A stretch of 64,000 bases of DNA from Nereocystis luetkeana. Lineage: Eukaryota > Sar > Phaeophyceae > Laminariales > Laminariaceae. This document shows, piece after piece, positions 1-57,000 of this stretch. The stretch covers positions 7,582,157 to 7,646,156 of the forward strand of contig JARUPZ010000023.1 of assembly GCA_031213475.1 (NCBI GenBank), in the 5' to 3' direction. The position numbers and the translations under genes are program-made. The notes beneath the pieces were generated by a model. It made no database searches, was not told where the DNA came from, and saw only the letters and a program-made list of their open reading frames with translations. How positions within the stretch are numbered: position 1 is the first letter of the stretch; each line of letters starts with the position of its first letter.

Positions 1-326
1 TTCCTTGCATATGGATGGCAGCGTCGAGTTATTTGATTTGTTTTCCGGTGTGGCCACTTCCAGAGACAGCAATGGGGTTGCTATGTAACTGCCTCGTGGG
101 TGCCTTGCCATGAACACTACCAGGTACGTGATGCGATCCTTGTGCGGAGTAAAGGTTCTCCACCCAGCACAAACGATTTTTCCCTCGATCGCCAGCTGCG
201 GCGACCGCAAAAAAAAAAAAAAAACTCTATGACGTGTACTCTGGATTTCTACAGTAGCTCCCTTAGTGAGCGGCATGTTTTGCAGTGTCGTTCCCAATCG
301 ACGCCAACCCAACCTGTATTCCTGGT
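1..326 (-). mobile_element. Poly(C)-tailed element, 5' half (cut by window edge)
   Basis: Matches 63250-63560 over its whole length (shared blocks CCAGAGACAGCAATGGG, GTGCGGAGTAAAGGTTCT, CGACGCCAACCCAACC). Compared with that copy it carries a precise 7 bp insertion CCAGGTA at a TA near 115. A run of nine G follows at 335-343. Confidence 0.75.
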
Positions 327-3300
327 ATATTTATGGGGGGGGGTGGCTTTCTGGCCGCCCATGCTGAGGAACAGGGTTTGTGGGATTTTGTGTTCTGCCT
401 TTTTCGATGAAAAAATCTTCACCCCACCCCCCCTGGGATGTGCGGTAACTTCGGCTTTCGGTGTTGTCAGTTCTCGTACGGGAGGCTTTCCTTCTTCTAT
501 ACCAGTATCATTTTACTTTTCAGCCTAGTTCGTGGCACTGACGTTTCCCCCAATCTCCCTTTTTTGCAATAACAGTGATATGGCATTGCCCTAGAAGGCT
601 TGTAAAGGTCCAGGATTACCAATACGCGACGATTATCTCGTTTGATGTGAAGGCCCATTTGTATCGGAAACAGGGGTTCAGATCGAGGCACGGTGGAGCC
701 CACCCTTCAGACTTTTTACTGGAGCCCTATTAGTAGTTGGACAATAGAACGCTGTTCTGATGGCAAAGCCCCCAGCACACGTGAGTGAGTGATACAGCGA
801 GACCTGCTCAAAAGGCAAACCTGGAACGGGATACGTGTCTCCCAAGCAGCCTCCTCCTGGCAGTCCCGGTTGTTATGTTGAAGGGTGCTTCGTCTCGTAC
901 TACTCTAGCAGTCTAACGATGTTACCGACAGTTTTCCAAGGCGGAGGGTTTCGTTATGTATAGTCTACCACACGTAGGGGCCTTCGATGGACTTCTGCCG
1001 CCAATGGCACACACGTGCTATACCGGTGCCCAGATGGTGAGAGGCGAGGGCCAGTCCTGCTGCCGCGTCGCCGTCCTCGGAACAGGTCGTCTGGGGCTCT
1101 ACGTTTTCGTGTTGCATCTCCGAGATTTGATTGAATTGGCTGCGGCAACTCGTTCGTACCGTAAATCATTCTAGCCACGAGCCGGCGGCTGAACTTTTTT
1201 CATGAATAAGCTGATTCTCCGTTGAGCGCAGGATGGGCCCAGTACTTCTCTTCGGGGTTTAAATGGTATCATAGTAGGGGCCAGAGGCAGCCCGGGCGTC
1301 AGCTTGCCCTGGATTGTTCGTTCTGGCTTGGTCATGTAATAGCATCGCACTGGAAGCTTCAAAGGCCCAGGTTCCAGGAATTAGATATACGGGAAAGGGG
1401 TAAAGTAGTGCGTCCTCCCTTCCCGTTTTTCCGAATCCTAGAACCTAGGTTTTTGCAGGCTTCCAGGGCAAAATCACACCCACCCTGATGAGCCGTGTGT
1501 ATCAGTATGAGCATGTCAGTTTCGGGGGGCACACCACCTGTCCCACGAACTACTCGTAGAATATCAATCGAAGGTGCGGCCCCTCAATATCGACTTACTA
1601 CCTTTGTCCCTGCGAGGCTACGAAGTATCACAGGAATAATGCTAAAACGAAAAAACGGTAAGCTCAACCGTAGTGACAGAATCGGCAGACCCAGGGGCTA
1701 CCGCCCCAGCCGGGCGAAAATGTAACCCTGACACTGAAAACACACAACAAGCAAAATCCACGTCTACAGCGAGGGCGGGGGAGCTAAGATGCAGGTAGAA
1801 AACGGAACAACACGCCCTAACTACAGCACAGAAAGCCTTAATCACTATCACGCTACTTCAGATGTTACATGAGCAGGACGCCCCCAATGCAGTACGACAG
1901 CGACGATCCACAACCGTGTGGCAGCAAAGATAAGTTGTCTGGCTCTGCTGTGGATTGTGGAGATGGGGGGGGGAAGGAGGTGGGGTTGCCTGGCGTGTTC
2001 GGTGGTTGGAAGAGAAAATTTTACGGCTCTCCTTGAGATCGAATTCACCCCGTCCTTGGCCATCATCGGTCGCAAACCGGAGATTATCCGGCAGACTTTC
2101 ACTCGGCATCTATCTGCTGTGTGTCATTCCAAAACACCAAACCGTAGAGCTGTGATTTGGCACAACTAAAGTAACCAAAATCAATCAGCAGTTATTTGTC
2201 GGACTAATGGATAGTCGTTTCCCGAAGGTGTCGGCTTTCCGATTGGTTGGGTTTCCACACGTGTAGGAAGTATTGTGGAATGCGGGATACATATTTCTTC
2301 ATTTTTTAGGGGGGGCGGGGCCCCCTCGACCCGCGAGGGCTGTTTTGGCTGGCTTAACTCGCCCACCTCAAGTCGGCAGGTCGACTGGCCCTCAGCTGGC
2401 CCCGCCAGCCGACTAGCCAACTACAGTCAGCTAGTTGGCTAAGGGTACCCTACCGATTAGATAATAGTCGTGAAATCCCGCCCACTCGCAGCTCTTCTAC
2501 CGAATTGCACACCATAACGCGAACAATGTGTATTTCAAATAATAAAAAGCCAACGGAAGGGCGGCGGAACAGACCAGGCAGCGTTCCCTATTGTCAGCAG
2601 ACAGATGCGCAGGGTGTAATATATTTACGTTCGGTGGCTCACAAGAGAGTCCAGCATTCTCAAAGTCACTTCCAGGGTACCTCCGCGAGAAAAATATCGC
2701 CGCCGCAAGGAAATTCGGAGACTCGACTCCCTGACCTAGAGCTCTCCGAGCGGGAGGCCGAAGACCGTGCCCGCGTGCGCTCACCCTTCGCGGCCCCGAC
2801 GATCAGAGTCGATGTATCAACCATTGTAGTTGCATCTACCGGGATATTTAGCCACTAGTGGGAATAGTGGGACCACGGTTTAATTTTTGGCAAGATGACA
2901 TTTGAACAGGCACAGTGGTATTCCCGTACAGCTCTCTGTGCAATGTGTGGTTCTTCAGATATTAAATATTATGTCGGTGACTATCGGCCAGTCGGAAGAG
3001 TAGGCTGAAGCCCGCAGCAACGACGAGACGCCATGCGCCACCCCCCCCCCCCCGCCTCCCCCACATTCCAATACAGCCTCCTCCAAGGCGAACCCACCAC
3101 CTCTCGTAATCACACACCCTCGCTCCCCCCCCGTTCGAAACAATCTCTTTTCCTGAGCCGCCTGTACCACACCCATGCATTATTGTCTACTGGAGGATAA
3201 AGTGTGATAATCGGGGAATTCGGTGTGGCCCCCAAGTGGTTCCAGTGCTATAAGAAGGAATGCATCATACCATTGCGGTTGTCTTCCTTCTCACTACTTA

Positions 3301-6290
3301 CAGCGTTTGGGCTACTCGGGTGAGTGGCTCAGTACCTCACTCGAAATTGGACCTGGAAACAGTGTGTTGGTGCAGCCTATCATAGCAAACGAACCCATAG
3401 CTGTGCATATCGCGAACCAAAAATCCCCGAAACCTTATGGCCGCGAAACTGAATAGGCTATAGTTACTCGGCCGAGTGGCTCAGCGCGGTTGCAAAGCAA
3501 GGACCTTAAAGTGACCCCCCCCTTACGCAGCACCAGTCTGCGCCGGCCTGAGTTGGCTTTCATGATGAGGGCATATGCCTAGAAGAGGTCGGCCAAGCAA
3601 GTCGCAATGCGAAACCTATTTGCACCTCATGTTCGGAGATCGTCAGGGCGTTATACTGATCTTTAGCTCGGATTATAAATATAGTGTACCAATGTCCGGC
3701 GTTCTTCATGATATGCAAGACGTTTTTGTACTCAGGTGCACGACGATGCTGGAATAAATGGCAATACTATCCTCATGGAAGAAGCGGACTTAAGTTTATA
3801 CAGGCCCACAGTTTCTCTCTACCACAGATTATCCCGATGAAGTAATCACGCTGTTGAGCTGGATGCCAAGCTCGCGAGAAAAAAACATGGCCTGTGGGAA
3901 CACGATAGAACACTCGTTATCTCGCATCACGACTCCAAACCTGAAAGTTGGCACTCAAGAAAAAAGTGCTGTGTTCGCTACACGACTGAACAGTGCCTGT
4001 CTAAGGGGACACGGCGTAGACAGGTACGGTACCTCTACACGGCGATACACCCTATATTATACTTCGAAGTAGATAAGTGCTACCAGTATTCGGCTATTAG
4101 GCAAGTTCGACTCCAAGCCGCTGGCCACTACAGACAGGTAGCCTTAAAACGGTACTACCACTCACTGTTGTATTGACAATCAACTCTATCTAATAAGAAC
4201 CTATTGTAGAATGATGTACTACTGTAGTTCATCGTTGGAGTCTGCATAATACATGGACCACACCTGTCAAGAAAAAAATATCCTACCGGTCCCCCAATTT
4301 TCACGCACTGGGCATCGTCGCTCAAACCCAGTTTCACGTCACGTTCAAACCAAAGCGCCTCCCGCACCGCCTTCCAACCCCTTCTCCCCTTCCTTGTGAT
4401 ATGTCCAACGATGCGGAGTGTGTAATATTCAGAACGGTAGCACGAAAAAGTGCCGCTTGCAGACTACCAGGTAAGTAAGGTAATGCACCACCCACTACAA
4501 AAAACTGGGCACCGCCGTGGCACTGGCAACAAACCCAGGCAGGTCGATCCGCCCGCAAGATTTATCCAACGATGGTGATGGGTGATAGAAGATCATAATA
4601 GAATCTTAGATGACAGGCCATAAAAAAAGGTCAAGATCGCGTCACCTTCAGTTTCAACTGGGGTAACTCAGCCTCCCGCGTTGACTCGCGAGGAAAACCA
4701 AAATGGCGCCGGGTAATCACGCGGTCCGTCGGGGCTAGTGTTATTGAACACAACACTTCACTTTGCCGCGTTCACTGGCGTTTCCGACTATCGGCCACGT
4801 TTTGTGCATGCTGCATTAAACGTACGATATCTGCTTTTGTAAGTAGATTGTCGGTGGTGTCTTTGGTGCGGATGTTTGGTTTGAGGTTGCTGAGCATGTG
4901 ACGGGGTTGTCAGTGAGAGCCAGCACAGCCTTCGGGATATTTTTTTCGTTGTGCGCAAACGAGATGATCTACAGTAGGAATGTTGTCTGCTTGCTGAGGT
5001 CGTAGAGTACTGTGTTGATGAGAGGTGCAGGCAGACCGAACTCATGATGACGCTAAACAAAATAATCGGGGTCACTGTTGGCGATTGCCAAGTGCGAGTT
5101 GAAGGTTGTGCTTCGCGGCTTATACGCATCGACCGGGGGCATGGCTTCCGGGTCTAGAGCGTTGCGTCATTAAACTCACAGTATGGCCACCTTTTCTGTA
5201 CCCGATGTACTGCAGTTACTGTGACCGTGTAGCTTTCTCCCCTGTCAATGTCGACGTCAAGAAGGGGGGTGTTGTTTTTAGCTGTTTGTCCACGGCTTCC
5301 AGACTGCAGCTGTTGACAGCTCTACGCAACAGGGGTTGGTATTTCTGCCATTCAAAAACCTACTCCCATGTCATGCACACGTTGCCGAACGAAACACCCG
5401 ACAACACGCGCCGCGTGCCCACATAGCCTTCTTTAGCGCTATGCGGGTCTGTGCGTCTAACATTCGCCAGCAGCCTGCACCGTTTAGCCACCACAGCCTC
5501 TGGCCACGACCAGCTGGGACACTGCGATCTGGCTGTCGGCCGTCAGCGGCGCTCGTAGGGGCCGGGGCGCAAAACAAAGCATCCCCACAGTCTCCTTACC
5601 GGAACGCGACATTCGACGCTTCTGGCGCGCCTAGGAAAGTCCTAATTTTGAATCACCCACGTATTGGTATGTTCACAACTTGATCTGTAACACGGTGACT
5701 ACCAGTCGCCAGAATCTCTAAACGGAACGTTTCTCGAGCCGCCGTACAATTATAGTGCTACTGTGGCCCGATCACAGGAGACGTATTTCTGACAACCCCT
5801 CGACAATTATGCGGCGACCCTGGAAAGTTCGTAGCAATGTCTCTGTAGAAGTACGAGTACGAAGCGGCACAGCTTCAGATGGCGATGATTTCAGCAGCTC
5901 TACGGGGAAGCAGATGTCGTTCTTCCCAGCATCAACTCCAAATGAATGACGATGGTCGTGGTAGCTCTGCGGAGTGACTCGCAGCGTGTCTCCACATAAG
6001 TACGAGTACGTAGAAGATATTGCTTCAGACGCACCGTAGTATTTACTCGATAGAACCGCTGGACCACAGCTCTACGTTGAGCGCCGAACACGTCGAGGCT
6101 CGTAACCTGTTGTCGGAGTGTCCGTTTGTGGCAGTGTGATGGACGTGCTATGAACAGGTCAGAAGCTTTGAGCGATTCGCTTTTATAAAAATTAAGTGCA
6201 ATAACTATACAATATTTATTGGTTCTATGATACACGAATCAGTCATTTGCGATACTAAAATCGATATGTATCGCGGTTCTCAGATGCACT
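327..6290. other. Gene-free stretch 3' of GNAT, no exon recognised
   Basis: Open frames here are short and match no family I know. A piece of the ~200 bp dispersed family D is near 505-540 (TTTTACTTTTCAGCCTA). G/C runs occur at 335, 1960, 3041 and 3516. Two copies of a GAGTGGCTCAG block lie near 3313 and 3474. The rest shows nothing I can name. Confidence 0.5.
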
Positions 6291-6299
6291 TCGTACATA

Positions 6300-6545
6300 G
6301 TTATATAGTTTCTTTGTTTTTCCCATCCCGTCCACGTTTTGTCTTCGCACTTGTTTCTCTAGCTCCTTCCCTTTCGTAACTCAGACCCGGGGTCACATTA
6401 GCAAGCGCCCGCCTCCCCTCCCCGCTACGGTGCGTGCCTTTAGTTCTATCTCGAGAAGAATTCAGTATTTTCTTCCCTCGTCGACTCGCGTGAGAATAGT
6501 TGGAGAAAAATCAGTCCTTTCTTCCCTCGTCGACTCGCATAGGAA
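6300..6545 (+). repeat. Dispersed family H, copy 1
   Basis: Shares GGGGTCACAT, AGCAAGC, a CCTCCCCTCCCC tract, a GTGCCTT block and CTTCCCTCGTCGACTCGC with copies at 11890-12075 (inverted) and 12275-12530. Its end holds a ~55 bp tandem duplication of TTCTTCCCTCGTCGACTCGC. Confidence 0.5.
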
Positions 6546-8129
6546 TAGCTAGATGCGGGAAAAACACTTCAGTATGGAGAAACAATACCTACCACTCTGG
6601 ACGGAAGAAGTTTATGGACCGCTTGGTGTTCACATTAATGTACCGACGGTCCTATCTTGCCGCTCAGAGTGGTGCCATGTGTGCACCAGTCCCTTTCCGG
6701 GATGCAGGGATCTTTCTCCTGGGGATATATAGGACGCTATCTTGAGCGTCTCCGTATTGTCTCGGGCTTCGAGAGGCACAACATCGGGGGGGGGGGGGGG
6801 GGGGGGCTGCCACAGACAGCCTTTCTGTAACACCTGTCCCCGATGTCCATCACGCCCAACTAATGCTAATCAGAACCGTTCTATTTAACACAAGTATGCT
6901 ACCTGGTATACATGTACTTCACCGTCTGCTCCCACTCCCTGTCGCACTTAACAACAGTAGCCCATTCTGAAGAGTCGCGGATGAAGATCCCACGACAGTG
7001 CAAGGACGGCAAATAGAACATAGGGAAAATCCGGAAATGGATCCGACATGCGGCTCTTCAAAACTGCAATAATAACGAAAACAAGGCGATATGTCTACGT
7101 ACCTTACACCTCGTCATGAGCCTAAAACGCCTCTCCTAGGAGATATACACCCTGTTTGATACAGGAAGGGAATGGTAGGGGGCGGCTATGTACGTACCCG
7201 AACTGTCCTTGCATTGATGGTGATGCTCGAACTATATTATGCCAGGGAGCTGCTGTGTCTACAACTGAACTGCAAGGAGTAAAGCACTGAGAAAAAACAG
7301 ACTAGACTGCAAACGAGATCCACAGGGTTGAACCTCATGAGAGAGATAGCGTACGCGACATCGACACCGAATATGGCGATACTCCCTGGGACGCAGGGAT
7401 ATCGACTGCGATGTTTTTCGGTTGGGGACAGATGACGCTCTCTTTAATCCCTCGGTTTTACGTTGGGGTCGAGAACCGAGGGAGCGCGGGGGGCAGCCAC
7501 AGAAAGCCTGAAGCCCTCTGCTTCCGATACCAACCGTACTTGGTCAACGCCAAACACAATCATTCCATACTCAAGGCTACTCCAGACCTGGTTCACCGAT
7601 CAACTCTCACGTCCACAGCACTTCAAAACGCATGAAAACTCCAATTGAGTACAAATATACAAATAACAAGGACTATAAAACTACGGCAAACTTCAGAATA
7701 AAAGAGCTTTCTTTCAATATCGTCAGAGCAATGTGCCACTCACGACTGCTTGTGAAAATTTTGATGAATCGCCGTCGTGGGGGTAACATATGGTACAGCA
7801 GTGCGCCGAGGCGTCTCTTAATGTGATGTGATCGGCGAACAGGTACCGTCTTCGACGTCTAAGCATCTAGCTCGAGACTATCATTTTCGGCAAGCTTAAG
7901 GAAGGGAGCCTAAGGAAGGGAGCAAGCCGAAGGGCGATTGGGCGCATTCACCACGAACTAGATCCGAGCTTGCGCAGAGCTGCAGGCTGGTAATCGTACA
8001 TGTGTATTCCAGCCAGCAGAAGGGCAGAGCACGAGATCCCGCATCTCGTCCCCCCACCACTTCGCTGGGTAAGCAACCTACACTGGCGGTTTTCCATAAT
8101 ATACTAAACACCAGGAAACATTAGATGCT
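6546..8129. other. Gene-free stretch with a G20 homopolymer
   Basis: Holds a G run at 6787-6806 and a duplicated 13 bp block GGAAGGGAGC(C/A)TAAG near 7900. I see no exon or known repeat here. Confidence 0.4.
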
Positions 8130-8326: not shown

Positions 8327-11300
8327 CTGCACGACGCAGCACGCAATGGGGGCAGGGACCAAGCGGGAGATAAAATCGTGATCAGCATGTACCGAGCGGT
8401 CGATCAAGAGAACAGCAATTGACATCTTAGAGATCTCACGTACCTGGTATAGGATATCGATCGAGTCCCCGCACAACCACGGTATGGCCTCAGCCTCATA
8501 CCACGATGTCCGGAAAGATAAAACCGTTTTGGCATTAATGGCCCGTACTTATCCGGACACAATGGTATGCTACAAATAGATACTACGAGCGAAATCTGAC
8601 ACGAGGGCATCAACACAGGGACGTCGAGGGTACCGCTTCGCCCGGCGCGCGGTTCATGCCGTACCAGGTACCAGTTTGCGCATAGCAGACAGATGAGCCG
8701 GTGTCCGGGGGAGTGCGAGAAAGACGGTTTCCGATTACCCATACCACCTACCAGGGTACCTGGTATGATTCGACGATTATGTGTAACGTTCAATGTTCCT
8801 CTCGTGTCGTCAACACCGAGCACATCTTCCCGATGCCAGCTCACAGCTGGAGGCTCCGTCTGCAATGGTCAGGCCGTATCGTGGCGAACAGGGGACATCG
8901 GCGTGGATATCGGTTGCGTACATTCCTGGCGCCAACCGATTTGACTAAATAATTTTTGTTTTGCTTCTAGACGAAAATTATGCCCACACACTCAAAAGCA
9001 TGGAAACATTTACTGTATTCGACACAGTCTCCAGGACGGCAGCAGCAGCAGCAGGCTGGGGGACGACGACTTCGCTTGCCACAGCAGCTGCGCTCAAAAA
9101 CCACCGACACAGGGGGGATGAACTCAACGAACAGCCCGAGGATACCTGGCAAGGTTGCTTCTGGTCGTTGTGGCAACAGCGCAACCGTTGAAAATCCGAT
9201 TTTTCGGTCGTACGACGGTAGTGGTTGTTTTTGCCCATTCTAATCCGTACGATGTTTTCGTCGGAACTTAAGGCCCGTCGCCCCACAGTCGTGCCCCTCC
9301 CCCGCTCCCCCTCTCCCCTCCTCACCACGGCGTTCACCTTCGTTGTTACGCGTGCCTGCGCGATGGGGTCTGCAATTCCACTTTTAGCAGACTCCCGGCG
9401 TCAAGGTGTGCTTTTTCACGTCACTGCTAATGCACCATGCTCCTGTCCCGATTGAGAGAACGTGGACAACAAAAGAAGAAAGGGCCCGAGCGGGAGCCGA
9501 ACCGAGGACCCCCACTGATCAAGCAAAAACTCGTGCTTGTTAAAACCTCTTGAAAAAACAGCAGTAAATTGCGAGCGGTCTCGAGTCTATAAATAGCTAT
9601 CATCGAAAAAAAAAGAAGGGGTTTAAAAACGCCTTTAGAACTGCACCCCACGTTTTTGGGTGGTAAATTACTTGGAATTAGTGGGGGATAAGATTTTCAG
9701 CATAAGGAGCACGCTTATGGATGATCCAGCACGGAAAAACAACAACAACAACAACAACACCTGCGGCGGATGTAAGAAGCGTCCCGATTCCCCGTCCTGA
9801 GTAACGATTCGGCACGCTGAGCATGCCGAAGTGCGCATTGACCCCCGGGTCCTCGCTAACGCTCGTCCCCGACCAAGTCACGTGGACGCAGCCCACCACT
9901 ACAGAAGAGCCGTCAACGTTCTTTTCCTCAGCCACCAAGAAGGCTTTGCAGGGCTGCTCAATTAAAGTCGCCACTATTGTCCTCGAAAACAGGCAGGGGC
10001 GGGGGGGGGGGTGGGCGGCGCGAAAGGGGCTATAGGTGAGCAGAACCTCGAGATGCCGAGTAATACCTTAATGTGTGCCCATGTTAATACATGCAATGCC
10101 GACAGGTATACTTCGAAGTATATATATATATATACATCGCTGAACATGTTAAAACTGACACTTTTTTTTCATGGCATGAGCGTCTGGCGAATTGATATCC
10201 GGCGGGTTATCCCCTTTAGAAGTGCGGTCCCGATTTGGGGGCAATCCAGTCAAATTCTAAGTGGTTTGTCCCCAAAACGGGACCGCGGTACTATAAGGGT
10301 CAAGAAGAAAACGAAAAACGAAACACTCGGTGTGCCTTTTTTGCTCGTGTCGCCGAAAAGGCATGCGCGCGAGTTGCCACGCGAGTTGGCGAAAACCGGA
10401 TGAAAGCCGACGAGCAGTGGGGATGCTGAACCCTATGCCCAATAAACACCAAGGCAAATACATACCAGGTATATGATACATATGCCACGGGGGGGCGAAA
10501 GGAAGACACCTACCTGTGACCACGGTCTGTTCAGAAGGTCGTTGGGCGTCAAGGCCTCTGCGAATAAAGCTGGAAAGTAAAAGGGACGATCTCCCCTTAA
10601 AAAACAACATAGTCATCAGACTACTTACTGTATGTAGTGCTCCGTGAGCGCGTTGGAACAATGCACGTTTGCGAGACCTATGCGAGACTACAGCGATGTT
10701 AAACTGCAAGGATATATTGCCGTATCATGCCATAGCAAGCGCGCGATGGAGAAGCTGGGAGCACCCGAAGCACAAAGCACGAGCCCAAATACCGCTGATA
10801 CTCGTACGCCTTACGTATAGGCGGGCAAATAGGTGTCCTGCACTGGACATTGGTCGATCGGAACTGCTGTTAATACGAGCATACCAGGTACCAGGTACCA
10901 GGTATTGTATGATGATTAGTAAGGGGTAACGAGGCCTCGCGGTTATCTCGCCGTATCCTACCGCTAGGCCAAAACCCGTACCTGGTTTTTTTTTTCAGGA
11001 TCATGAACGTAATACCAGGTAGTCCCTACTGTACGTCACTACTGCTACGTACTTGATGCTAAGGAGGCGCGGTGGGCAGATCGTTCCTTCTAAACCGGAG
11101 CAACACACTGCTACCGGGTGCGTACGTAAACAGCAGTGCTACCAGGGACCAATACATGCCCAGGGCGGGCAATAGTCGGGACGAAGCCCGGCGAGGAGAA
11201 CCCACAGGACGGGACAGGTCGACAATAAACTGGTGCCTATCAGTGTCTAGTACACAACCTCCAAGAGCTCCACAAGCCAACGAGGGGTCCACGGAAAACT

Positions 11301-14300
11301 CCTCGTTGATGTTGTGGACAACAGCAACAACAGTAGCAGCGAGGGATGGGGCGAGTGGTCACGAGGGGTCGTGAAAGAAGCTGAAAAGTTCAAGGACGTG
11401 TACAATAGTTGGCTTGAGGGGGGACCAGTTGCTGGGAATGATGAGGATGGGTGGGCGGGGGGTGGCGAGATGCCGAGCCTTGCGAGAGAGAGAGGCAGAT
11501 GAAGTATTTCCTGTAGGCCAGTACGTGAGTAGTCGTAGTAGTAAGGGGGGAGGAGGGTGGCGTCGCGAAAACAGAAAAATTGTGCCGCAGCCGGAGAGGC
11601 GAGGAAGAAAAGGATGATGGCAAGAAGACCGTGTGGCAAGGCTCCAATTTGACTTCGAATGAAATAATGGAATCGACGCTTGTTCATGTCGTCGTTAGGT
11701 ATGATACCCTATCCCACATCGGTATTCAACAGTATGCACCCGATGGATGAATTCGGATAGCTGTGGAGGTCAGATTCGCAGATGGATGCGAAGATGGAGA
11801 AGATGCGAATGATGCTTTGAACTTCCACGAGCACCTCGATGTGTTCTCCTTCCCTCTTATGTTGCGTGCCAGCATTTGAATAATAGCAAGGAATTAACTG
11901 CGACCGAGAGCGCGTAGGGTGGGTAGGCCCAATTCGCTGCGAGTCGGCGAAGGAAGGAATGGCTGAAGTCTTCTCGCGGTATAGATGAAGGCACAAACCG
12001 TATTGGGGAGAGGGGAGGGGAGCTTGCTAAGTGACCCGGGATCTGAGTCACGACTATGAGAGGAGGGAGAGAGAAAAAATGATGGCGAAGACAGCAAATG
12101 GGAAGAAGAAGAAGAAGAAGAAGAAGAAGAAGAAGAAGCAGAAAAAGAAGAAGAAGAAGGAGAAGAAGGAGAAGAAGAAGTGTCACAACAAATGACAACG
12201 ATATCTTACGTACGAAATGCGGTGCTCATCAAAGATACCCACAGCACACTTGAGGTTCGTACGAATTGACTATTTTTCCTTCTTTTTTTTTCCTCTTCCC
12301 ACCTACTGTCTCCGCCCTGCTTTTCTCTCTCCCTCATATGAATAGTATGAGTACTGGTACCAGGTAATAGTCGGGAATCAGATGCGGGGTCACATAGCAG
12401 GCTCTTCTTCTCTCCTCCCCTCTCCCCACACTACGTACGGTTTGTGTCTTGTTGCAATATATATTATATCACAAGAATACTTTACCCCTTATCCTCCCGT
12501 CGAATCGCGTCGAATCGCGCCTCTATGATGCGTACTGAGGTATGTGTTAACTTCTAGAACCGCAGTCCCGATTTGGGGACAAACTACTTGAAATTTGAAT
12601 GGATTGTCCCCCAAAATGAGACTGCAGTTCTAAAAGGGTTAACAGACATACCGCCGTATCATACCATATAAATATCCAATTACGTGTGCTACGATACGTA
12701 TAAAGAAGAAAAAAACGAAGCCGTGACCTATGCCAATGGGACAGCGAAGTTTCAATAAAAAGTTTGAATTTCAAAGATACCCGCCAAAAAAAATCAGAAC
12801 ACGCTTCCTATGGGCCACGTAAAAACAAAAAAAAAGTTTCCAACTTTTGGAAAAGCCCGAAAAAAGCAAATCTGGGGCCGATGTTGGGCCAACATCGGCT
12901 TGAGAAAAACTCAGGCCGATCTTTGGTTCGAAGCGGCGAGATTCCGAGTCCTCGACAGACATCGATCAACAAAACCAACGATTGCGTCATGAATTCTGAA
13001 CGGAGTGCGCTCGTTAGGGGCTCCGACCCACCCTAGGGTCACCGTCTTCACACCATGGCCGGTGCCATGTGGCCGGAGCTGACCAGGCGTACGATGAAAG
13101 AAAAATTGGCCGCTGGTTTGCACAAAACAGAAGACAAAACTTCTCCATCCGTCTCGAATGGCAAAAAATAGACTTTTTTTCAGGTTTGGGAGGATACCGT
13201 AGGACGCCGCCGGCAAGCTCTCGCGCCCTAGACCATGGATCCACCTGATATCTTCAAGGCCGTCATCTATGTTCGTTGGCCTTGCCAGATACCGAGCGGG
13301 TTGGCCGTGGGCTGAGTCTATGTTCAGATCGAGCGTCGATCGTCGCACGAGCTGGTTTCGATCACCGTGTTGACAATTTGCAACCAGAAAAACACAAATT
13401 GCGCCGCCTGCAGCCGTTGGGGGAAAAAAAAGAAAAAATCAAACATTTTTCTCTTTTTTCCCCACAGCGGAGGTACAAGAATTTTTTCGGCTGTTTTTTT
13501 AAAGCAACATATTGGAAAAATAACTTTTGAACTTCGCGTTTCCATTGATTGGCATAATAGGTCTGAGATCGAAAAATTGCTCACAACTCATCTTTGCGAG
13601 CTTGGTGTGACAATTCGATCGCGCGTTCTAACGGAGTGTGTAGCTTTCTCGAGCTGTCTACTCGTACAAATTCTTATTATGCTTGTCATCCGACAATGTG
13701 TAGTGTTGTTCTAAAAAAAGACTATTAATAATCGACGAAAAACAATGAGGGAAGCGAAGGAGAGCAAAAAGCAAAAGCAGATATTTAATATTACGGGGGT
13801 CATAGTAACTAGGACCAAATATTGTTAATAATAGTAAAAAAAAGGTAAATATATAGGTTATTGTGTTTGTCGTAGGTCCTACGTACTATGGTCCCCCGTA
13901 ATAGCAACAAAGCAACAAAGCAAAACGCAAGAACAAACAGAGACACAAAGAGGGGCAAACGGGAAAGAAGGAAAGAGGAAAAGAAGGGACAAAAAAAAGA
14001 CAAAAAACGGGCGGGGGGGAAAAGATAATACGAAATGCAGGAACTGGTGTCTACAGACACGCAAAGTTGCCCGGGTGGCACCATGCTAGTTACTTGGATC
14101 CCAAAGAAGGGAGCGCATCATGACGATGATGACCATACCCAGACTCAGTCTGTTGGGCAGACCGCCCCCCTCCCCTCCTTCCCCACTCCCCCCCCCCCAC
14201 ATCCCCACTCCCCCCCCCCCCCCCCATCCCCCCTCTGCCCGCTCGTCCCCCTTTCGCCCCCCTCTTCCCTGCCATTCTGCGCACGTGCGTTGGCGCCAAC

Positions 14301-17300
14301 GGTTGCAGTCGTGGTTGCAGCCATCCTGTGTCGTTCTGCCGATGCCTGCTTCTCATCCTTATGCCCTTTCCGCAAGAAAAAACCTCCGCCCCTTCCTCGA
14401 CCCGTCGGAACCATCTGCCGGCTTTCTGTGCTGCCTCGTGCCACCCTTCGAGCTTGATGCCAAACTCCTTGAGGTCCTCCTCAAGGTACCTCATCCAGTT
14501 CCACTTCTGTCCTCCGGAGTAGCCCTTACCCCCGACCATCTCCCCAAACATCACCCTCTTCGGCAGACGCTCCTCTCCCACGCGTGTCACAAAGCCCGCA
14601 AACAATAGCCTACGTCTGCCCACCGTCATCTCAACGCTCTCAGAGTACCAGGTATTAAGTGGACTATGCTCGAGGTTTTCCAAGCATTAGTGCCAAAAAA
14701 AAGGTTTTAAGGCTGGCCCTCGCTATTACGGGGGATCATAGTTAATAGGAACTACGGCATTCATAAAAACTTATATATTTAAGCATTTTTACCAACAATA
14801 TTTTGGTCCTATTAACTATGGTCCCCCGTTATACTATATACTTCCAGGTACGTAGGTGTTCATTGTTGGCTGATCCATACTGTACCAAGAAGGTGAGCGA
14901 GCGAGTGAAATGCCCGACGCACTATTGCTATAAGGCACGAAAGCGACTCGCAAGTGGTGCGTACTCTGTAGGAGCCCTTCCTATATCTTCGTGTTCGGTC
15001 AACGAGCGCAACTATGATTGGCTGGAACGAACAAGCACGCGTCAACCACAGTGCTCCCCTCATGGACAGGATTGCCGATAGGTTGTCGTCAATGGCGCTC
15101 TACCCACGTCAATCGTCACTTATGGAGTTTTGGATCGAATCGAACCGTTGTCGCAGCACCCTCAGGAACAGGCGGAGATTTACGGGGGGAAAATAAAACC
15201 CGACGACGTTTTGTTTTGATGCTGGTGTAGAAATCTCCCTTCCCCACGTGCTGCGCCAATAATTCGGGCCGAGCCAACATCTCCGACGTTCTTTACCTGG
15301 TATTATTATGCGATATTATTCGAAAACGGAGTACCGTGTGTTGTTCTGCTCCACTTGTCGGTTCAGAGAAAGTCCGCCGGAGCAAGCACCTCGCCGTAAT
15401 GGCAGTGCTCATTGGGAAAGGCACGTTGCAGCATGTGATCCGGCCACTGGACACTAATCCTACGGTATACCGGCTCCAAACTACTCAGGTTGGCTTTCAC
15501 CGTTTTATGGCCTAGGGTTCGCCGTTTTGTTGCCTACCGAACTCCGAACGATGCATCCGTCAGACCCCGGGCAACATCAGAACAAACCGAAGCAACAGCA
15601 GCATACGAGTACGTCCGGCGGAGCAACAACAAATTCCTACATCCAAGAGAGCACTACTAGTATTATTGATCGCATCAATAGCGGGGGTCAGAACGTTCCG
15701 TCACCTGCAACAGTGGTGCTCTGTTGGTTGTGTACATGTTGTTGTTGCTCCGCGGGAGTCATGCTTGTTGTTCTCGTTTTTTAGTTCTGATAAAGAAAGT
15801 TGACCGGGTTGACTTACTGTAGTCCGGGTCTCATGGGCATGTCGGTCTGCGGTCTGTGCACGGTGAAACCTAGGCAAAACAAAACGGTCAAAACCAACCT
15901 GAGAACTGAGTACATACGTACGTACGTAGTCTGGAGTCGTACGGTGAGGTTTGTGGCCAGACCATCGTACAGCGGTGCCTTGGTCAATGAGCGCTACCGA
16001 TATAAAAGGATGCCTTCTGCGGCGGATTTGTCCTGCACCGGAAAGTGGCAAGAGAAAGCTCCCGGTACACCGTTTTATGGACAGTACACACTAGACGGAG
16101 CATCGTCGATGTAGCCGACGGAGAGGTCCCAAGTGAGGTACAAAGGGCTGGTTCAAGGAAAAGACCTCAAATCGCGTCAGCCACGAATGAAGGTCGTATG
16201 AAATACCTGGTAGCTATGAATACATGAATATCACACTATTCGGTATCCTACTGACCGCGATGATCAGCGGGAAGAGGTAGCCGTATCCACAGTATTCATT
16301 CGGGTCCACTTATGTATGAGTTTTTTTATTCAGAATTATTGTTTTGTGGGCAACTTTTTTCACCATATTCTTCAGGACAATATTTGCATGTGAATATATC
16401 AGCAGCCGCACAGACCCACAGAGACACGTTTTTTTTGTATATATACTTCGAAGTATATTTTTTTTCATCATCACTTTTACTTTCCAGCCTAACTCGTAGC
16501 GTAGGAGGTTTTACCCTCAGCGATCCTCTGGACAAGCGGTGGTCACAGGTGTCGTCCCTTCTCCCCCCCGGTACGTGCCTTTATTTTCTTGTCGTGCGTA
16601 GGGTCCAGCATTCCCACTGCTCGTCGATCTTCATCGAATCTAGCTAACTCACGCTCTCGCGCTTTCCCCCAATCGTAATTTTATGCAAGAAAAAGTCCCT
16701 ACCAGCATGCACTCGGTGAGACTTAAACCCACAAAATTGATCTTGATATGCATGCGAACCACCTACCAAGCCACCGGGGACGCCGGCTGCAACACGCGTG
16801 GGTAAAACCGGCGGAAAACCGAGGATTTCAGCTTTCCAGCGATACTACTTGTAGCCGTAGGTATACGGTTGAAGGCGAGAGGTGAGATGATAAAAATAGG
16901 TAGTGAAGAGCTATATTAAACGGGGGGGGTGCTTAGACCGGAGAGCACCCCGGATTTTTGCGTGTTAAGCATATATTTGGAAAGCTTGGAGTACGGGCCG
17001 CAGAATTGTGTAGGTTTGGCGCGAGTCCTGATCGTTCGTGAGATACGTGCGTCTAAAGACCGGCACCCTTACTCTCGTTCCCTACCTCTGGCGCATCCGC
17101 AACATCACATTTATTTTCGGCTATAAGTAGAATCATTGGAAAGCTGAAGTCCTCAGCTTTCCGTCGATACTAACTACTGCTCTGTAGCTCTCCTGTTTGC
17201 CGCAGTATACACAAAACTTAGTCCGGATGCTGATAGCTCCGTCGACAAAACGAGGCGAAAAAAATTACCTTAAAAAGAACAATTCCGGAAAGATAAAAAA

Positions 17301-30000: not shown

Positions 30001-30866
30001 CGTCGGTTGGCAACGACACTGTAAAACATGACGCTCGCTACGTGAGCTAGACAACCAGGGTACCGTTTTTTTTTTTTTGGCGGTCACGCACAGCTGGTCG
30101 TCGAGTTAGATAATCTGTGCGAGGTAAAGAACCTTTACTCCTCATGAGGGAATTGATGATACAGTATTCATGGTAGGGCGCCCAAGAGGCAGTTACATAG
30201 TACTCCCATTGCTGTCTCTGGAAGTGGCTGCACCGGAAATTAAATTAACTCATTGAAGCTGTCATCCATATGCAAGTCCGCGTCACAAGCGGTTCTTGGT
30301 AGGGTGCAGCTCACCCTTCATGCGACTCGCCGGACACCTCACGGCGCTTCGCGCTTGGTGCAAGCAATTTCTGGTCGGTGAAGACCCGACATGCTCCGTC
30401 CCGGCATTGTAGGGATGCGAGGGTCTATGGTCATCCGACTACGGCCATGCTTGAGATCGAGGTCATCTCTCCTATCGAGTACACCCCCCCCCCCCTCGCC
30501 CTTCTTCACGCACGACCCCTCCCCCCCCCCCCTCCTGCCCCGCTCCTCCCTTCCTCCCTCCCTGCCCCCTAGCACATCAACACCACCAGCATCAATCCCT
30601 TTATATTAACATACCATGTATGTGTGAACACTTGTACAACTTATTTAATACCTGGTAGTGTTAATAGGTGCGAATACTGCTGCTGTAAGTAGAGTATAGT
30701 CACCGACCGGAGCGCACCGCGCAACCCCCAAACCCCTAATCTGGGCACAGCATACTATGGGATACGAGTGCAGCAGCATACGAGCCGCCGAGATGCCCCC
30801 GAGCTTCCCAGAGGTGTCCGCAGTCAGCATTCGCCAAATTACTCGTACCGTACATAGCATTCACCC

Positions 30867-30898
<32 letters not shown>

Positions 30899-40157: not shown

Positions 40158-40226
<69 letters not shown>

Positions 40227-43200: not shown

Positions 43201-44799
43201 GGCGGGATCTCGATCGCTTTTCAGCGCTCGATTTTTCCAGAACGGGAAAGGCTGCCATGCCAACACCGAAAAACTATTTCGGGGGACCATATGACATACC
43301 GGACCTACGGTACAGACAAAAACCTACCTGGTACCTGGTATGTTTTTTCGATATTTTTGCTGACAAATTTTAGGTCCTATTCACTATGGTCCCCCCGTAA
43401 TCGGTGTTACTCGGAAAATATGTGATCGAGAGGAAGAGAGAGAGCCTTCCGAAAATAGAACGTACCCGGTACGACTTTGGCACCCTTGCCGTCGTTGTCC
43501 AGAGAAAGAAACGATCGCACCTAAACCCTGTGCGCGCACTCAACGCTCTTTTACGCTATTCGTTCTGCCATCCGACCATGTGGTCGACGCTTCCCGGTGG
43601 TCCTATATGGTGCTTTATAAACCTCGCGAATAGTCATAGATCAAGGTCGTGAGTTCGAATCCTGCCCAAAAGCAGGAACATTTCTCGCGGAAAAAATGAC
43701 TTTTGCTGAAAGCGCCCATCAAGAGCGTGTGAACGCACATTTCGACACGGGCCGACGAGAGAAGAGAGTTTGCTTGGCTCGTCCCGCGACAAAAATGAAG
43801 GCACGCGACGCAGTGGGGTAGGGGGGGGGGTACACTCGATAGGAGAGATGTACTCGATCTCATGCATGGCCGTAGTCGTATGACCATAGACCCTCGCATC
43901 CCTACAATGCCGGGACGGAGCATGTCGGGTTTTCATCGACCAGGCAGACATTGCTTGCACCAAGCGCGAAGCGCCGTGAGGTGTCTGGCGAGTCGCATGA
44001 AGGGTGAGCTGCATCCTAGGGGGGGGGGGCGTACTCATTTGTTGCTCGCCTTAGTCATTTGACCATTGACCACGCATCCCTTTCGAGACGGAGCATCCTA
44101 GGGGGGGAGGGGGCTGTACTCGATATCATGCACGGCCGTAATCGCATGACCATAGGGGGGGGGTGCCCGCTGTGTGACCCCGGGTCTTATTTCGAAGGGA
44201 AGGGAGTCGGGGCTATAGAGAAATAGGGTCAAACCTGATACATGGGATGGAAGAAAAAAAACAAAGATAAACCTACTCGTACCAGGTATGTGCGAGTACT
44301 CGTATTATGTACCGGTATCAAAATCTACTGGCACTGGTATTGGCACTCTAAACCATCTGGAACCCCAGGTACGACGACCCAAACGATTCAGTAAACGCGA
44401 TCTCGCCGAAAGTAGATGATACGGTGAATGAAACAATCTGTATCTACGAGTATAAGAAGGTTACTTTTATTTTAGTATGTCGTGCTGCGAGCCGTCAACT
44501 AAATCGTGGACGGGAATTCTTCTATTTTTCCTCGCAGCCCTATCCTCACCAATGGACACATATATGAGATGCAGCAGCAATCCCTTTGGCAGTACGCGCT
44601 ATATACCTGGCACGTGTATGTAGTTCCGTCATGCCCCAAAATTCCAACATTGCCCCAGCACCATGGCGCACTCTTCTAATACTTGTAGGTTCTTTATAGT
44701 TTCTCTGCTTTGTACCAGGTACTCATCATTTCTTAGATCCATATAATCATTTCTTACTTTCTCACTCCCAATTCCCTTCGCTTATTATCACTACTGCCT

Positions 44800-44845
<46 letters not shown>

Positions 44846-46898: not shown

Positions 46899-46938
<40 letters not shown>

Positions 46939-49900: not shown

Positions 49901-50265
49901 TGCACGAAGGACAGAGCCACCACGTCTACCCCCCCGGGCACGATCAGAGCGAAGTCCAGGTCGGCACGGTCCTGCGTCATGAACAATTTTGCCCCGAGAG
50001 AAGAAAGGACCGCCATCATAAACGTGTACCAGGTATAAATAACTATTACGGGGGACCATAGTTAACAGGACCTATGGTACACATAAAAACCTATATGTTT
50101 AACCATTTTTACTAACAATATTTGGTCCTGTTAACTATGGCCCCCCGTAATACCAGGTATATGCTAGTAAGAGCGGGGGATGAGATGATGGCAACGGCGA
50201 TATAATATAGACGAAAAGGGGGAATGCCGAACCCTACGTACGAGTGCGAGACAAGAGTGGAGGCA

Positions 50266-50297
<32 letters not shown>

Positions 50298-53200
50298 AAG
50301 ACAACTGTGATCACTATTTAATAGGGGAAGGGAAAACACCTGTGGCCACGGGGAAGGGGGGGGGGGGGGGGGGGGGGAAGACAACTGTGATCACTATTTA
50401 ATAGGGGAAGGGAAAACACCTGTGGCCACGGGGAAGGGGGGGGGGGGGGGGGGGGAAGACAACTGTGATCACTATTTAATAGGGGAAGGGAAAACACCTG
50501 TGGCCACGGGGAAGGGGGGGGGGGGGGGGGGGGGGGGAGAGGGCGAAGACAGGCACCCTACCCTGTGACCACGGCTTGTCCAGAATGCCGCTGGTGGTAC
50601 AAAATATTCCTCGAACTGGACTGGATAGTAAAAACGATGGAACAAACAAAAAATAATTGAACAAAAAAAATAGCGGGGTACGAGTATTTCATCTACTACA
50701 TACGCATGGAGGGCTCTTTTAACGAACGTTATGAGCAAAAAAAAAATGCCACGTTGAACGAACAGAATCTGCGGTATGTGGATCGGTAGTGATCCTCAGC
50801 ACAAGAGGCGTGATGGCGGTCGAGTGTTAGTTGCACGAAGATTTAAAGCACGGAGTCTAACCAGGGTTTTTTCCAACCCCGGAGGATGTTATTGGCTCAA
50901 GGCACGTGGCAGCATCAAAAGGGCGCCCCGTATCCGAATGGGGTAGATTTTGCGATCTGTAGACCGTATAGTGGAGCATCTACTCCCCTGACGCCCTCAG
51001 CAAAAAAAGCATGACCAACTACGTGCTGGGAATGCAACCTCAAACGTGCGCGTCGCTGGCGGCAGCACTCGCTTTATCCTGGGGTGAAAGATAAAAAGGT
51101 GAGAGGACGGTACCACACACTCTACCTACGTACTGCTGTGGCTCTACATACTGCTGTGCTCGCCTTGGGGGTCATCGCGGAAATGGGCAGACGCACGGTC
51201 GGAGTGTTCACCCCCTTCTTGTTGGACAGCTTGCCCCCCACGTCGACCCTGCAGCTGACGTAGCCCTCTCCGCTGTCCACAACCGTCATGCGCAGCTTGC
51301 CGTCGTCCAGAAGTAGAGAGTCGCCCTGCATTGCGCCGGGGGGGGGGGGGGGGGGGGGGGGGCGTACTCGATATCATGCATGTCCGCAGTCGTATACATG
51401 ACCATCGACCCTCGCATCCCTGCACTGCCGGGACGAGGGGGGGGGGGGGGGTACTCGATATGATGCATGGCCGTAGTAGCATGTCCATGAGGGGGAGTAT
51501 CCCCATTTTTCGTTTTTCGTTCTTTTTTTTTTCGTTTTCGTTTTTTTCTAGATTGTTTTGGTGCTCTGGGGCAAATCGGGGAGAAAAAAAAAAGAAAAAA
51601 AAAGAGAGAGCCACGGCGTATGGGGCATGCAGAAGTGGGGTACCACGATCTAGCCTCTAGCCTCAAGAGAGATTTTCGGTACAGGCCAAAAAACCCCTCT
51701 CTTAACCCTCTTGGAAAACTGTCGATACAAAACTGATGACCACAGCAACGGCCCCTGCGTGATCGGGTGGCGACACCAAATCGATGTCCCAGTCACAATG
51801 CAAAGCAGGCGTACACCACGGGCGCAACATGATCCTATACGCCTGGTGTACCGCCACTACTCGCCGCCCGCGCTACTCGTACGTAGGCGTTTGAGGGGGG
51901 GGGAAAGTTTCATTGTTTTGGCCGCTATCTCGGGAGTTCCAGAGGGGCTAACTAGCCTTCTCTTTTACTATTACGGGGGACCATAGTCAATCGGGCCAAA
52001 TATTGTTTGAAAAAATAGGGAAATATATAGGTTTTTGTGCGTACCGAAGGTTCTATGTACTATGGTCCCCCCGTGAAATAGTACATACCTGGTATGTGGT
52101 ATTAATAGGATGCACACTATTACGGGGGACCATAGTTAATAGGACCAAATATTGTTAGTAAAAATACGGAAATATATAGGTTTTTGGGTGTGTGCCGTAG
52201 GTCCTATGTACTATGGCCCCCCGTAATAGCATGTATGCACGCTACTTCAGAGGGAAATATATAGCTTTTAGTGTATGCGGATGCAGTTCATTGGGTCTCT
52301 CTTAACTGCATGACAATATTCTCTTATATAGCGTGCCCTCTCTCGAGTCGGGATGCCCACTACTGCTGTATTCACAGCAGAATCGACTAAAACGATGATC
52401 GCGGCGTGTGACTCGCCGGACCAAACAACCATTGCAGAAAAGAGCGACCCCTTCGGACGAAAGTATTGCGGCGTATCCACTCGTACCGAAATAACCCCTC
52501 CGAGAGAAACGGTCGCCGCGCCCCAAGTCAGAGCCAAGCGCACAACACAACCCTCTCGCCATGTGAGCAAACGCCAGATCAGCTCCGCTCAGCTTCAGCT
52601 TCGCACTGCCCAGCTCACCTCCTGGAGGGTGTCGATGATCTCCTTGTGCGGCAACCTCACGCGGGCCGAGTCTCCCGGCTCGTCGTCCATGTCGAACCGG
52701 AACAGCTGCCCGTCCACCAGGTTCACCTGTCGGCCACCACGGGCGAAGGAAGGTCAAGGGCAGCAGACGGGGGGCAGAGGGGCACTCGCTCCATGTCCAG
52801 AACTCTAGGTGGACTTACTACATCCCGATGGGAGCAGGAGAGCACGGGGCTGCTACTGATGTCTGCTGTACGACCTGCGGCGGAGAGCCTACACGGTCCA
52901 CCACCCACCAAGGCAACGGGCCACAGCATGCGCCACCACCCACTCACCCACCCACCTACATGCGACATGCATCCCGCACTCCTTGGACACCCTCCGCACG
53001 GCGATGTATGTGATGGGGTCGGGAGTCGGGCTTCGTTCGAGCTCTCTGCTTTTCGCTGCTTGTCCTCACACCCACAGTATCTAGTGGGTAGCTTCCCTGT
53101 GAAAAATGCCTTGCAATCCTACTGAAACCCAATCGCACAACCGTTGCTGTCCAGCGTGGCGCGACCGCCATCAAAGCGCAAGCCTTATACTACTGCAAAA

Positions 53201-54038: not shown

Positions 54039-54080
<42 letters not shown>

Positions 54081-57000
54081 CTACACTACACCTACGACTA
54101 CGGGCATGCATGACATGAGAACCCCCCCCCCCCCCCCCCCCGCCCCCCCCGCCCATCCCTCTCTGCCCTTATTTGTGTATTTCTAGCGCACCTCAGCCTT
54201 CTCCTCGTGTGCACCGTGCGAGAAGTTGAGCCGGAACACGTCGACGCCAGCCAGGAAGAGCGCTTCGATCTGCTCGTACGTGCAGGACGCCGGACCCAGG
54301 GTCGCAATCTAAGCAAACGCCAAGGCGGTGGGGTGGTGTGGGGAAGGCAGGGGAGGTTAAGAGATTGGTTGATGGGGGAGAAAACCATTGGCAGGAGGCG
54401 TACCGGAAAACGTGTACTGTACCGGTACCTCGTGTCAAGTACCTATAAATATAGTGAAAGTATACCAGGTACCCGGTGAGATACTTACGGATATATATAT
54501 ATATATAATATATATATATATATATTTATTTTGAAGCTGGGCGGCCGAAAGACCCGCCTTGACCAATAAGACCCGCATCCTGCACAAAGTTTTGTGCAGG
54601 ACCCTCATAGGTCGAGTCGAGGGGGGGGGGTGTACTCATGTCATGCATGGCCGTAGTCGTATTGGGGGTGGTGGGGTGCGTTGATAGTCAGTATCGTCTG
54701 CAAATGCCATCACCCATGACCCACCCACTGCTATAAACCCAAACCTAAATAGTGGTTCAAGAGAGGCTAAAATGGTAAAATGGTACGGCTGGGGACTATT
54801 ACGGGGGACCATAGTTAATAGGACCAAATATTGTTCGTAAAAATGGTTAAATATATAGGTTTTTATGTATACCATAGGTCCTATTAACTATGGTCCCCCG
54901 TAATAGCACAGCAGTATGTACAGGCAGCAGTAATCTACCCGGCCAGCATACTCGCCAGAAAGGTTTATTTTACGTACGTCCAAGAAACACACGATGCTAA
55001 GCTATAGTACGAAAACCCACCGAATGCGTTACGGGAGGAGAGAGGAGAGACAACAACATGCTGTTGAAATCCGACAGACCGATAGAAAATGACGGCAGCA
55101 CATTCGCAACTGTCTTGAATCAGCCGGTGTCCAGCCCTACAAAATGGGGCAAACATATATCGATATTGATATTTCTCTCTTAAAAACGCTGCCCCATTGT
55201 ATGTATCGTCATACTGCCGGTTGTCCTCATCAATACTCGAGTAGTACTAACCTGCTTGGTGTTCTTCTTCCATCGTGCCTTGTTCGCCGGGTACGCAAAG
55301 TCTTGAAAGTGGTCGATTTCCTCCGCGCTGCTGGCGGCGGTGCTGCCGAGAATGGCGGGGTCGAGCTTCGTCTGTTCGGGCATCGTGGCCGTGCAGGATA
55401 GGACCGTTCGACGGGCGCTCCCACTGTCGGGGTAGGCTTGGCTTGGTCGCGTCACTTCGATCGCGCCTATTGCCGCTGTGATGCAAAGAGTAACAGCAGA
55501 AGTGTACCGGTTTGCCCGAGGTAAGGTACATACATACCAGGTACACAAGTTCATGTAATATTATCATACCGGGTATGTTCGGTGTATTCAGGAGGTATCA
55601 CACCGAGCTTGCAAATACCAGGTACCAGGTATGAGTTTAGAGGAAAAAAAACTATCTCAATCCAGTCTCATTACGTCGTCAAGCACCGATATACTCGTGC
55701 CTGGTATTTGTGAAAAGCAAAGACACACATGTATGTGTCACAAGTCAGAAGGTGTGAGGTATCGTGCACAACGAAACATAGTACGAGTACGTACGTACGA
55801 GTATTATTATTAATAGTGTATTAGAGCAGCAACGACAAACCAGCGACGGAACAAGCACCACATAACATCATAACATGCATTTTCTCCCTCTTTCTATCAT
55901 ACCAGGTACCACCTATTACGGGGGACCATAGTTAATAGGACCGAATATTGTTAGTAAAAATGGTTAAATATATACCTACGTCGTACCAGGTAGTAGTTTT
56001 TTTATGTATACCATAGGTCCTGTTAACTATGGTCCCCCGTAATAGTGTAGTACAGCAGTAATAATTCGTACCTGGTACCTGGTACGAGTATACTCTTAAC
56101 CGAGTGCAAGCATCTTTTTTGGGTGTTTTGATGTGTGGTGTGCAAGTGTCAACGTTCTCGCGGGCTCGGTTTTGGTTGGCTTGGCCCGGGTGTGTCATAG
56201 ATAGGCCAACCGTGGGTGTGTCATAGATAGGCCAACCGTGGGTGTGTCATAGATAGGCCAACCGTGGGTGTGGCATCTCGAAGCTCGACGCAAATCAAGC
56301 AGGATTATCACAAGCTCCGAACCTCCGGGCGGAATTTGGAGCCGCTTTTCGGGACAGCCACGCACCCATCACGCACAGGAGACAGGAGGGACGGCTTCGG
56401 TGAGGATCACTGATATACAACACAGCAGGTATTAACAGGTACCCTTGTACTACTGCTGTACTGGTATGGGTATCTTAATTCCAGCACGATATATCCAGCA
56501 GTCTGTGGACCTGCGGAGGGCCATGACCTTCGCTGAGAGCCCACCTCTACACGACACGTGGCGCTTGCTTTGTTTCGACGGAACCAGCGATGGAATAAGA
56601 CACGAGTACCAACACGGTAAGGGGCTACGTATGTACTTGCCGGACCACTTGCAAACAGCACTGACAGCACTCCATAGTTAATACCAGGTACCTGGTAGTA
56701 CCAAATATTGTTAGTAAAAATGGTTAAATATATACCAGGTAGCTTTTTATGTGTCCTATTAACTACCTGGTATGGTCCCCCGTAATAGGTGGGCTGGAAA
56801 GAAAAGCAGAGAGCAGAGAGAGAAAGAGAAGAGGAGTTTGCGGAACCATGCGTCTGTTGGGCAGGACGGAGCGCGCGAGTCTTTCCCGCGAGCGAACCAT
56901 GGACGAACCCAGGGCAGACCCTAACAACGCGTGCTACAAGCGGTGCACCAGGTACGTGTCAATTAATAGTCGGACAAAGCAGGAGCAGGACGATATATAT

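Follow-up and report, generated by a model that had tools for sequence, protein, structure and literature searches.

What has placed the same short sequence, TACCWGGTA (W being A or T), at dozens of sites in one stretch of the genome of Nereocystis luetkeana? The window, that is, the whole 64 kb stretch analysed here (contig JARUPZ010000023.1, C23:7582157-7646156), lies within an assembly of 465 Mb in 1987 contigs. The initial annotation described a 7-bp unit, CCAGGTA or CCTGGTA, inserted singly or in tandem at TA dinucleotides, and named an excision footprint among its possible causes. These units are very probably the excision footprints (scars) of a cut-and-paste transposon that resembles Tc1/mariner elements, targets TA and has ends that read 5'-TA-CCAGG.

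The estimate of at least forty sites, first made by eye, was a cautious one: the window contains 55 TACCWGGTA (29 with CCAGG and 26 with CCTGG), far above the 0.59 expected from an order-2 Markov model (P about 1e-86), and 30 order-3 simulations of the window gave a mean of 0.57 and a maximum of two. The 55 sites make up 47 events, 40 single, six double and one triple, in keeping with the description of single and tandem units. The scars are not confined to the window. The neighbouring 200 kb of the same contig (L018-L037) adds 78 sites, which brings the count over 264 kb to 133 (2.1 expected), and 30 kb drawn from three other contigs contains 13, giving 146 in 294 kb against 2.4 expected, or about one site per 2 kb. 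The pattern TTTGGTCCTACCWGGTA, which represents a scar at one TA of a repeated miniature inverted-repeat transposable element (MITE) designated MITE A, has 189 matches in the 465 Mb assembly, and its reversed-pattern control has none. Extrapolation from the 146 sites in 294 kb, mostly of one chromosome, gives a genome total of the order of 2x10^5 scars. Beside the 146 perfect scars, 107 one-letter variants were counted where 54 are expected, from which the divergence of the scars is estimated at roughly 4%.

CCWGGTA is an inserted 7-bp unit that regenerates TA. Similar copies of repeated sequences in the 264 kb and in three contaminant contigs were scanned for insertions and deletions of 4-60 bases with flanks alike and no further gap nearby, a procedure that was not steered to the motif. 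Among 244 insert sites, 28 have the form of a TA followed by an inserted N..TA, with cores of CCWGG in six, CWG in five and CGAG in two, the others being single cases, TTAA among them. All six 7-bp inserts that regenerate TA are CCWGG (one of them a unit of a tandem), while another 29 7-bp inserts do not regenerate TA; of the six 5-bp inserts that regenerate TA, five are CWG, two of them cases within one tandem repeat that may share descent. Regeneration of the TA target in all six CCWGG inserts is what a Tc1/mariner-type element requires.

The direction of change is apparent from the 11 MITE A copies of the window. When these are aligned, no place is scarred in more than two copies, so the unit was gained rather than lost, as the initial annotation had supposed. 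The place scarred in two copies is the CCTA site, hit in those at 43274 (double) and 56690 (single), and some MITE A copies beyond the window (in L037 and L012) share a scarred TA with one inside it. The individual comparisons put forward at the outset fared unequally. A poly(C)-associated element reads ACTA[CCAGGTA]CGTGAT at 118 and GCTACGTGAT near 63373, a difference that the indel scan also recovered as a TA insert (CCAGG scar, 118..126). The MITE A copy near 56690-56788 is indeed scarred at three places, one double (CCAGG+CCTGG, 56682..56697, aligned, its second unit also found in the indel scan) and two single (CCAGG at 56733..56741 and CCTGG at 56764..56772, each supported by both the indel scan and the copy alignment), and the unit at 55984..55992 sits, as described, within a longer complex insert in another copy. 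In the copy at 43274-43401 the tandem double (CCTGG, 43325..43340) is an insert by copy alignment, but the empty state with which it was to be compared is ambiguous, the TATA run there being different. The claim for element C did not hold: TACCAGGGTA is present at 19935, but the second copy differs by a 16-bp gap that is no clean TA insertion, and element C was dropped as insertion evidence. Further comparisons come from a CCTGG scar within a tandem-repeat unit (27824..27832), whose scarless paralogues read GAGCTATA; a CCTGG scar at 28649..28657, which is a 7-bp gap in the paralogue at 22348-22499; and a scar at 10463..10471, opposite a gap in the diverged paralogue at 24481-24651. Scars were also placed by motif and MITE A alignment at the edge of one copy (23919..23927) and at the terminal TA of another (50151..50159).

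Centre base and target choice were examined in the 264 kb. The central base of the scar is A or T in nearly equal numbers (69:64), and at the MITE A site, where orientation is fixed, A:T is 57:43 among the 100 matches listed of 189, counted by eye. The sequence R-TA-Y (R being purine and Y pyrimidine) surrounds 64.7% of 119 events, compared with 37.4% of 12,760 TA dinucleotides (P = 1.8e-9). With the flanks of 115 events read separately, A or T occupies position 7 in 82% on the left and 79% on the right (background 51%), and T adjoining the TA is avoided, with 3% and 9% on the two flanks against a background of 17%. The preference is thus symmetric around the TA, as would be expected if a transposase carried out the integration and as a Tc1/mariner-type element requires. 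Tandem events number 12 of the 119.

These features can be accommodated in one scheme. A transposon would insert at TA and duplicate it; on its exit, the transposase would make its cuts in the two strands 5 nt apart, and each flank would retain a 3' overhang, TA-CCAGG. The two identical CCAGG overhangs would anneal with a single central A.A mismatch, and repair of the mismatch to A or T would produce TACC(A/T)GGTA. Slipped or trimmed joining may account for the rarer forms CCAGGG, CCAG and CCATGG, and a second visit to the TA of an old scar may account for tandem units. Such an element would move without necessarily multiplying, and could leave far more scars than copies from few active copies. 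The form of the scar fits a TA with terminal nucleotides left by excision, the parental termini being deduced only from the scars themselves.

Because the major scar is symmetric, it cannot separate CCAGG ends from CCTGG ends, whereas imperfect joints can. In the 294 kb, three minor forms that can be built from CCAGG ends are in excess: TACCAGGGTA and its complement together (11 where 0.77 is expected), TACCATGGTA (3 against 0.25) and TACCAGTA (22 against 7.7). The mirror forms predicted from CCTGG ends are not enriched over the same sequence (TACCCAGGTA, 1 against 0.77; TACAGGTA, 9 against 11; TACCTAGGTA, 0 against 0.16). We infer that the parental ends probably read CCAGG and that W would arise at repair. 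Across the assembly, the MITE A site has 16 inserts in which an initial CCWGG lacks a TA directly after it, where reversed controls gave 0 and 1; this count covers forms other than TTTGGTCCTACCWGGVA, in which CCWGG precedes a non-T base and A. CCAGGGT begins 12 of the 16. The seven that were inspected, namely three of these 12 and all four others, proved to be short variants of the scar, which include CCAGGG, CCAGGTGG and a form of 12 letters, as well as one without the second TA and one with an altered TA.

The same DNA contains at least three, probably four, classes of scar. In the 264 kb, TAC(A/T)GTA occurs 88 times against 30 expected, and five sites were found as TA inserts in the indel scan; in the window these include TA-CAG-TA at 250..256 (a 5-bp TA insert relative to other copies) and TA-CTG-TA at 27931..27937 and 28103..28109, all three also supported by copy alignment and the last two possibly sharing descent. 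TACGAGTA/TACTCGTA occurs 62 times against 8 expected (29 and 33 by orientation), with two sites found as TA inserts (L030 and L034), and is apparently the 4-nt footprint class of another element. Minos has CGAG ends and a 4-nt footprint, which resembles this class and not the CCWGG class; the likeness is of form only, and the class was not identified as Minos. TATTAATA occurs 47 times against 1.0 expected, in many differing flanks, and a MITE A copy in L020 contains TTAATA inserted at TA, the one TTAA case of the indel scan. Intact MITE A copies and apparent TATTAATA scars were seen side by side. The inverted ends of MITE A, TATTACGGGGGACC, are perfect or nearly so, as in the copy with perfect ends at 54796..54906 on the minus strand, and its outer TA is taken as its target duplication. 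A TTA overhang left by MITE A would join through TA to give TTAA. C is the preceding base at 22 of 30 MITE A ends and at 53 of 96 TATTAATA positions, compared with a background of 20%. Judged from these sequences, MITE A is the likely parent of the TATTAATA scars, and the presence of both an element and a fitting scar strengthens the footprint reading of the other classes. In the 294 kb, TATTTAATA (14 against 0.8) and TATAATA (57 against 19) also fit MITE A ends; repeats and A/T-rich microsatellites may inflate both counts, and they were set aside.

Several observations weigh against excision of a CCAGG-ended transposon as the source of the CCWGG scars. Neither a CCAGG-ended element nor a linked transposase was found in the stretches examined. 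The half sites TACCAGG and TACCTGG number 52 and 58 in the 294 kb, where 37 of each are expected, and so show no excess of CCAGG. No match to DDE_3, a Tc1/mariner-type domain, was found in the whole genome, and none of the seven inspected non-standard inserts (of 16) at the MITE A site is an element. The form TACCAGTA is ambiguous and also fits a CTG-ended parent. TACCCCAGGTA, which fits CCTGG ends, occurs five times against 0.24 expected in the 294 kb; its excess is probably TACCTGGGGTA of a larger duplicated block. Finally, the order of units in the 14 neighbouring scar pairs of the 12 tandem runs in the 264 kb (CCAGG-CCTGG in four, CCTGG-CCAGG in none, equal letters in ten) is odd, the numbers being small.

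The search for the parent included both ends and transposases. In the 264 kb, exact matching of 14-mers between ends that face each other returned nothing other than scars; CCWGG ends form 77 facing pairs in which at least 13 of 20 positions agree, and the best 15 of the 77 start with complete scars. Among 95 facing pairs within 10 kb of each other that are not scars, the best agreement is 13 of 20, at least four of these positions being fixed by the search. Repeats with TACCTGGGG were rejected as element ends because they belong to a larger duplicated block, and TACCTGGGTTC was rejected likewise. Comparison with Pfam (E 0.001) of 162 of the 164 stop-to-stop frames of at least 105 aa in the window, low-complexity frames having been dropped beforehand, revealed no transposase; the two left out were 1-330 minus and 34720-35742 plus, the second of which was scanned separately as a slightly shorter frame. 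Pogo-like elements are TA-targeting as a group, and the pogo-like domain DDE_1 (PF03184) has 28 matches in the genome, two of them looked at as open reading frames, 352 and 415 aa long; of the 28 loci, eight were examined over about 3.3-3.6 kb each, and no CCAGG inverted ends were seen in these eight.

Absence of the parent from the sequence examined is understandable if it is a low-copy mobile element, since few active copies would suffice for many scars. In theory, neutral scars accumulate at the rate of transposition per genome. A stronger proposal, put forward tentatively and with rather less than even confidence, is that the parent is a 'ghost' transposon known by its scars alone, with CCAGG ends, a 5-nt stagger, near-obligate excision, a very low copy number and about 2x10^5 extrapolated marks.

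Among other explanations, the one that survives best, though it is unlikely, is an element with a 3-nt CCA overhang, the type found with Mos1-like ends, in which the overhangs would meet at one A.A position and gap filling would produce CCWGG. It predicts the same product with the same W centre, and CCATGG, the 3+3 form, is the one counted above at three against 0.25 expected. Its simpler products TACCATA/TATGGTA are not enriched, however (33 against 32.9 in the 294 kb), and a single mismatched base of overlap would presumably make a poor joining partner. Far less probable is a micro-insertion process, in which a TA-specific enzyme, rather than any larger element, would add or copy the CCWGG unit. 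The unseen parent speaks for such a process, as does the proportion of tandem events, which is above a rough estimate for random choice of TA; but there are parallel classes with other letters, for one of which a fitting MITE is present in the window, and the polar minor variants resemble trimmed or slipped overhangs. That a palindromic and very frequent sequence is a functional motif, whether a protein-binding or a methylation site, that owes its spread to selection or to repeats is hardly credible, because the unit is an insertion that sister copies lack, lies in unrelated flanks, recurs in tandem at 7-bp intervals and must have a TA to its left and right (the flanks are exactly TA..TA in 55 of the 202 CCWGG of the window, the next commonest pair of flanks having four), and this requirement together with the copy alignments likewise opposes Dcm-type methylation, or any function of bare CCWGG, as the cause. 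The excision-footprint explanation of the initial annotation is therefore retained, with the TA-regenerating inserts, the roughly 1:1 centre, the symmetric target, the polar minor forms and the parallel classes in its favour.

Known transposons offer partial precedents. The CAG overhangs of Sleeping Beauty pair except at a central A.A. Its footprint, and that of Frog Prince, is given as C(A/T)GTA in Table 1 of PMC3878927; one review gives the Sleeping Beauty scar as TAG(T/A)CTA (PMC2874221), and the statements of PMC3878927 and PMC8151067 are followed here. The CCWGG scar is like these in combining a TA duplication with terminal nucleotides and a centre of A or T, and unlike them in having 5 nt rather than 3, in its 146 sites in 294 kb and in its unseen parent. 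Osmar5, Ppmar2 and Stowaway MITEs are described in PMC1925063 and PMC9632168 as leaving some of their terminal nucleotides as a scar flanked by the TA duplication, and in one plant case reported there a new insertion occurred at an already scarred TA. Within the range of plant mariner-like and Stowaway elements covered by these accounts, staggers are 1-4 nt and scars are heterogeneous, whereas one symmetric 5-nt form dominates here; the scar suggests a 5-nt cut. Stowaway scars of 2-4 nt from one side and 1-2 from the other are on record (PMC1925063), and a 5-nt scar is therefore not unprecedented in length. Two other groups were rejected: piggyBac needs a TTAA target and leaves no scar (PMC8151067), and PIF/Harbinger (Tourist) elements make a 3-bp duplication and mostly excise precisely (PMC4561436), whereas here the target is TA, its duplication is 2 bp long and a scar remains. 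Programmed excision of TA-bounded elements, as in ciliates, would show as elements kept in the germline and missing from the soma; the analysis covered a single assembly. A literature search for the scar letters as whole words, which misses letters inside longer sequences, returned only an unrelated 7-letter match, and searches on excision footprints in microalgae, in brown algae, of MITEs and genome-wide gave no title on such scars among the matches listed. The novelty lies in a single symmetric 5-nt scar of such uniformity and density.

The remaining scars of the window were assigned on an exact match to TACCWGGTA, with strand given as (.). Tandem events are a CCAGG triple at 10882..10904, CCAGG+CCTGG at 27315..27330, CCTGG doubles at 28458..28473 and 56069..56084, and a CCAGG double at 55616..55631. 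Single scars are located at 4465..4473, 6900..6908, 8441..8449, 8662..8670, 8757..8765 (the first TA of which is the final TA of a minor 6-nt form, TACCAGGGTA, at 8749..8758), 11013..11021, 12358..12366, 14646..14654, 15294..15302, 16204..16212, 20897..20905, 23622..23630, 24023..24031, 24043..24051, 24352..24360, 25423..25431, 27256..27264, 28398..28406, 28499..28507, 29003..29011, 30649..30657, 37458..37466, 44280..44288, 44713..44721, 50027..50035, 52086..52094, 54463..54471, 55535..55543, 55900..55908, 58379..58387 and 61673..61681. From 30.66 to 43.32 kb the scar at 37458..37466 stands alone, against an expectation of 9.3 events, in an interval that was chosen post hoc and that contains a frame with a ThiE-type domain.

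Other frames of the window have ThiD-type (Phos_pyr_kin) and pyruvate kinase domains. By tblastn against a phage collection, the thiamine-synthase frame matched three Salmonella records at 44-49% identity. Neither Rfam (at gathering scores) nor ARAGORN detected anything in the window. The window is rich in long poly(G)/poly(C) runs, with seven junctions at which a repeated element continues as TACTCGATA, and a large inverted duplication, whose arms of some 1.7 kb are 97.6% identical and which has related copies close by, lies outside it in L030-L031 (C23, about 7.698-7.703 Mb). In viral contigs, the tandem unit was found in nine stretches with only two or three motifs each, which were judged to be chance; a MITE A 19-mer was absent from viral contigs, and a MITE A stretch from plasmids. 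A MITE A 19-mer occurs exactly in three contigs (L010, L011 and L012) of bins g2_MAG_00016, g3_MAG_00007 and g3_MAG_00016, which are binned as Saprospiraceae, Phycisphaera and Flavimaricola; 8 kb of L012 contain three TACCWGGTA. Host contamination of the deposited bins is the probable explanation, and a kelp-blade metagenome study with the same bin naming reports, in its account of whole-tissue assemblies, a host-kelp bin (PMC9238374).

The published excision scars considered here, so far as the sources cited describe them, were studied at single loci or on donor plasmids. Scars as dense as those of N. luetkeana let the history of transposition, the choice of target and the outcome of repair be read from one assembly; from the minor scars one can deduce the ends and the stagger of an element that was not itself seen, and the transpositions accumulated by the lineage become countable. 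If the parent is indeed a 'ghost', scars rather than copies would be the main trace of the element and would serve as a counter of its transposition.

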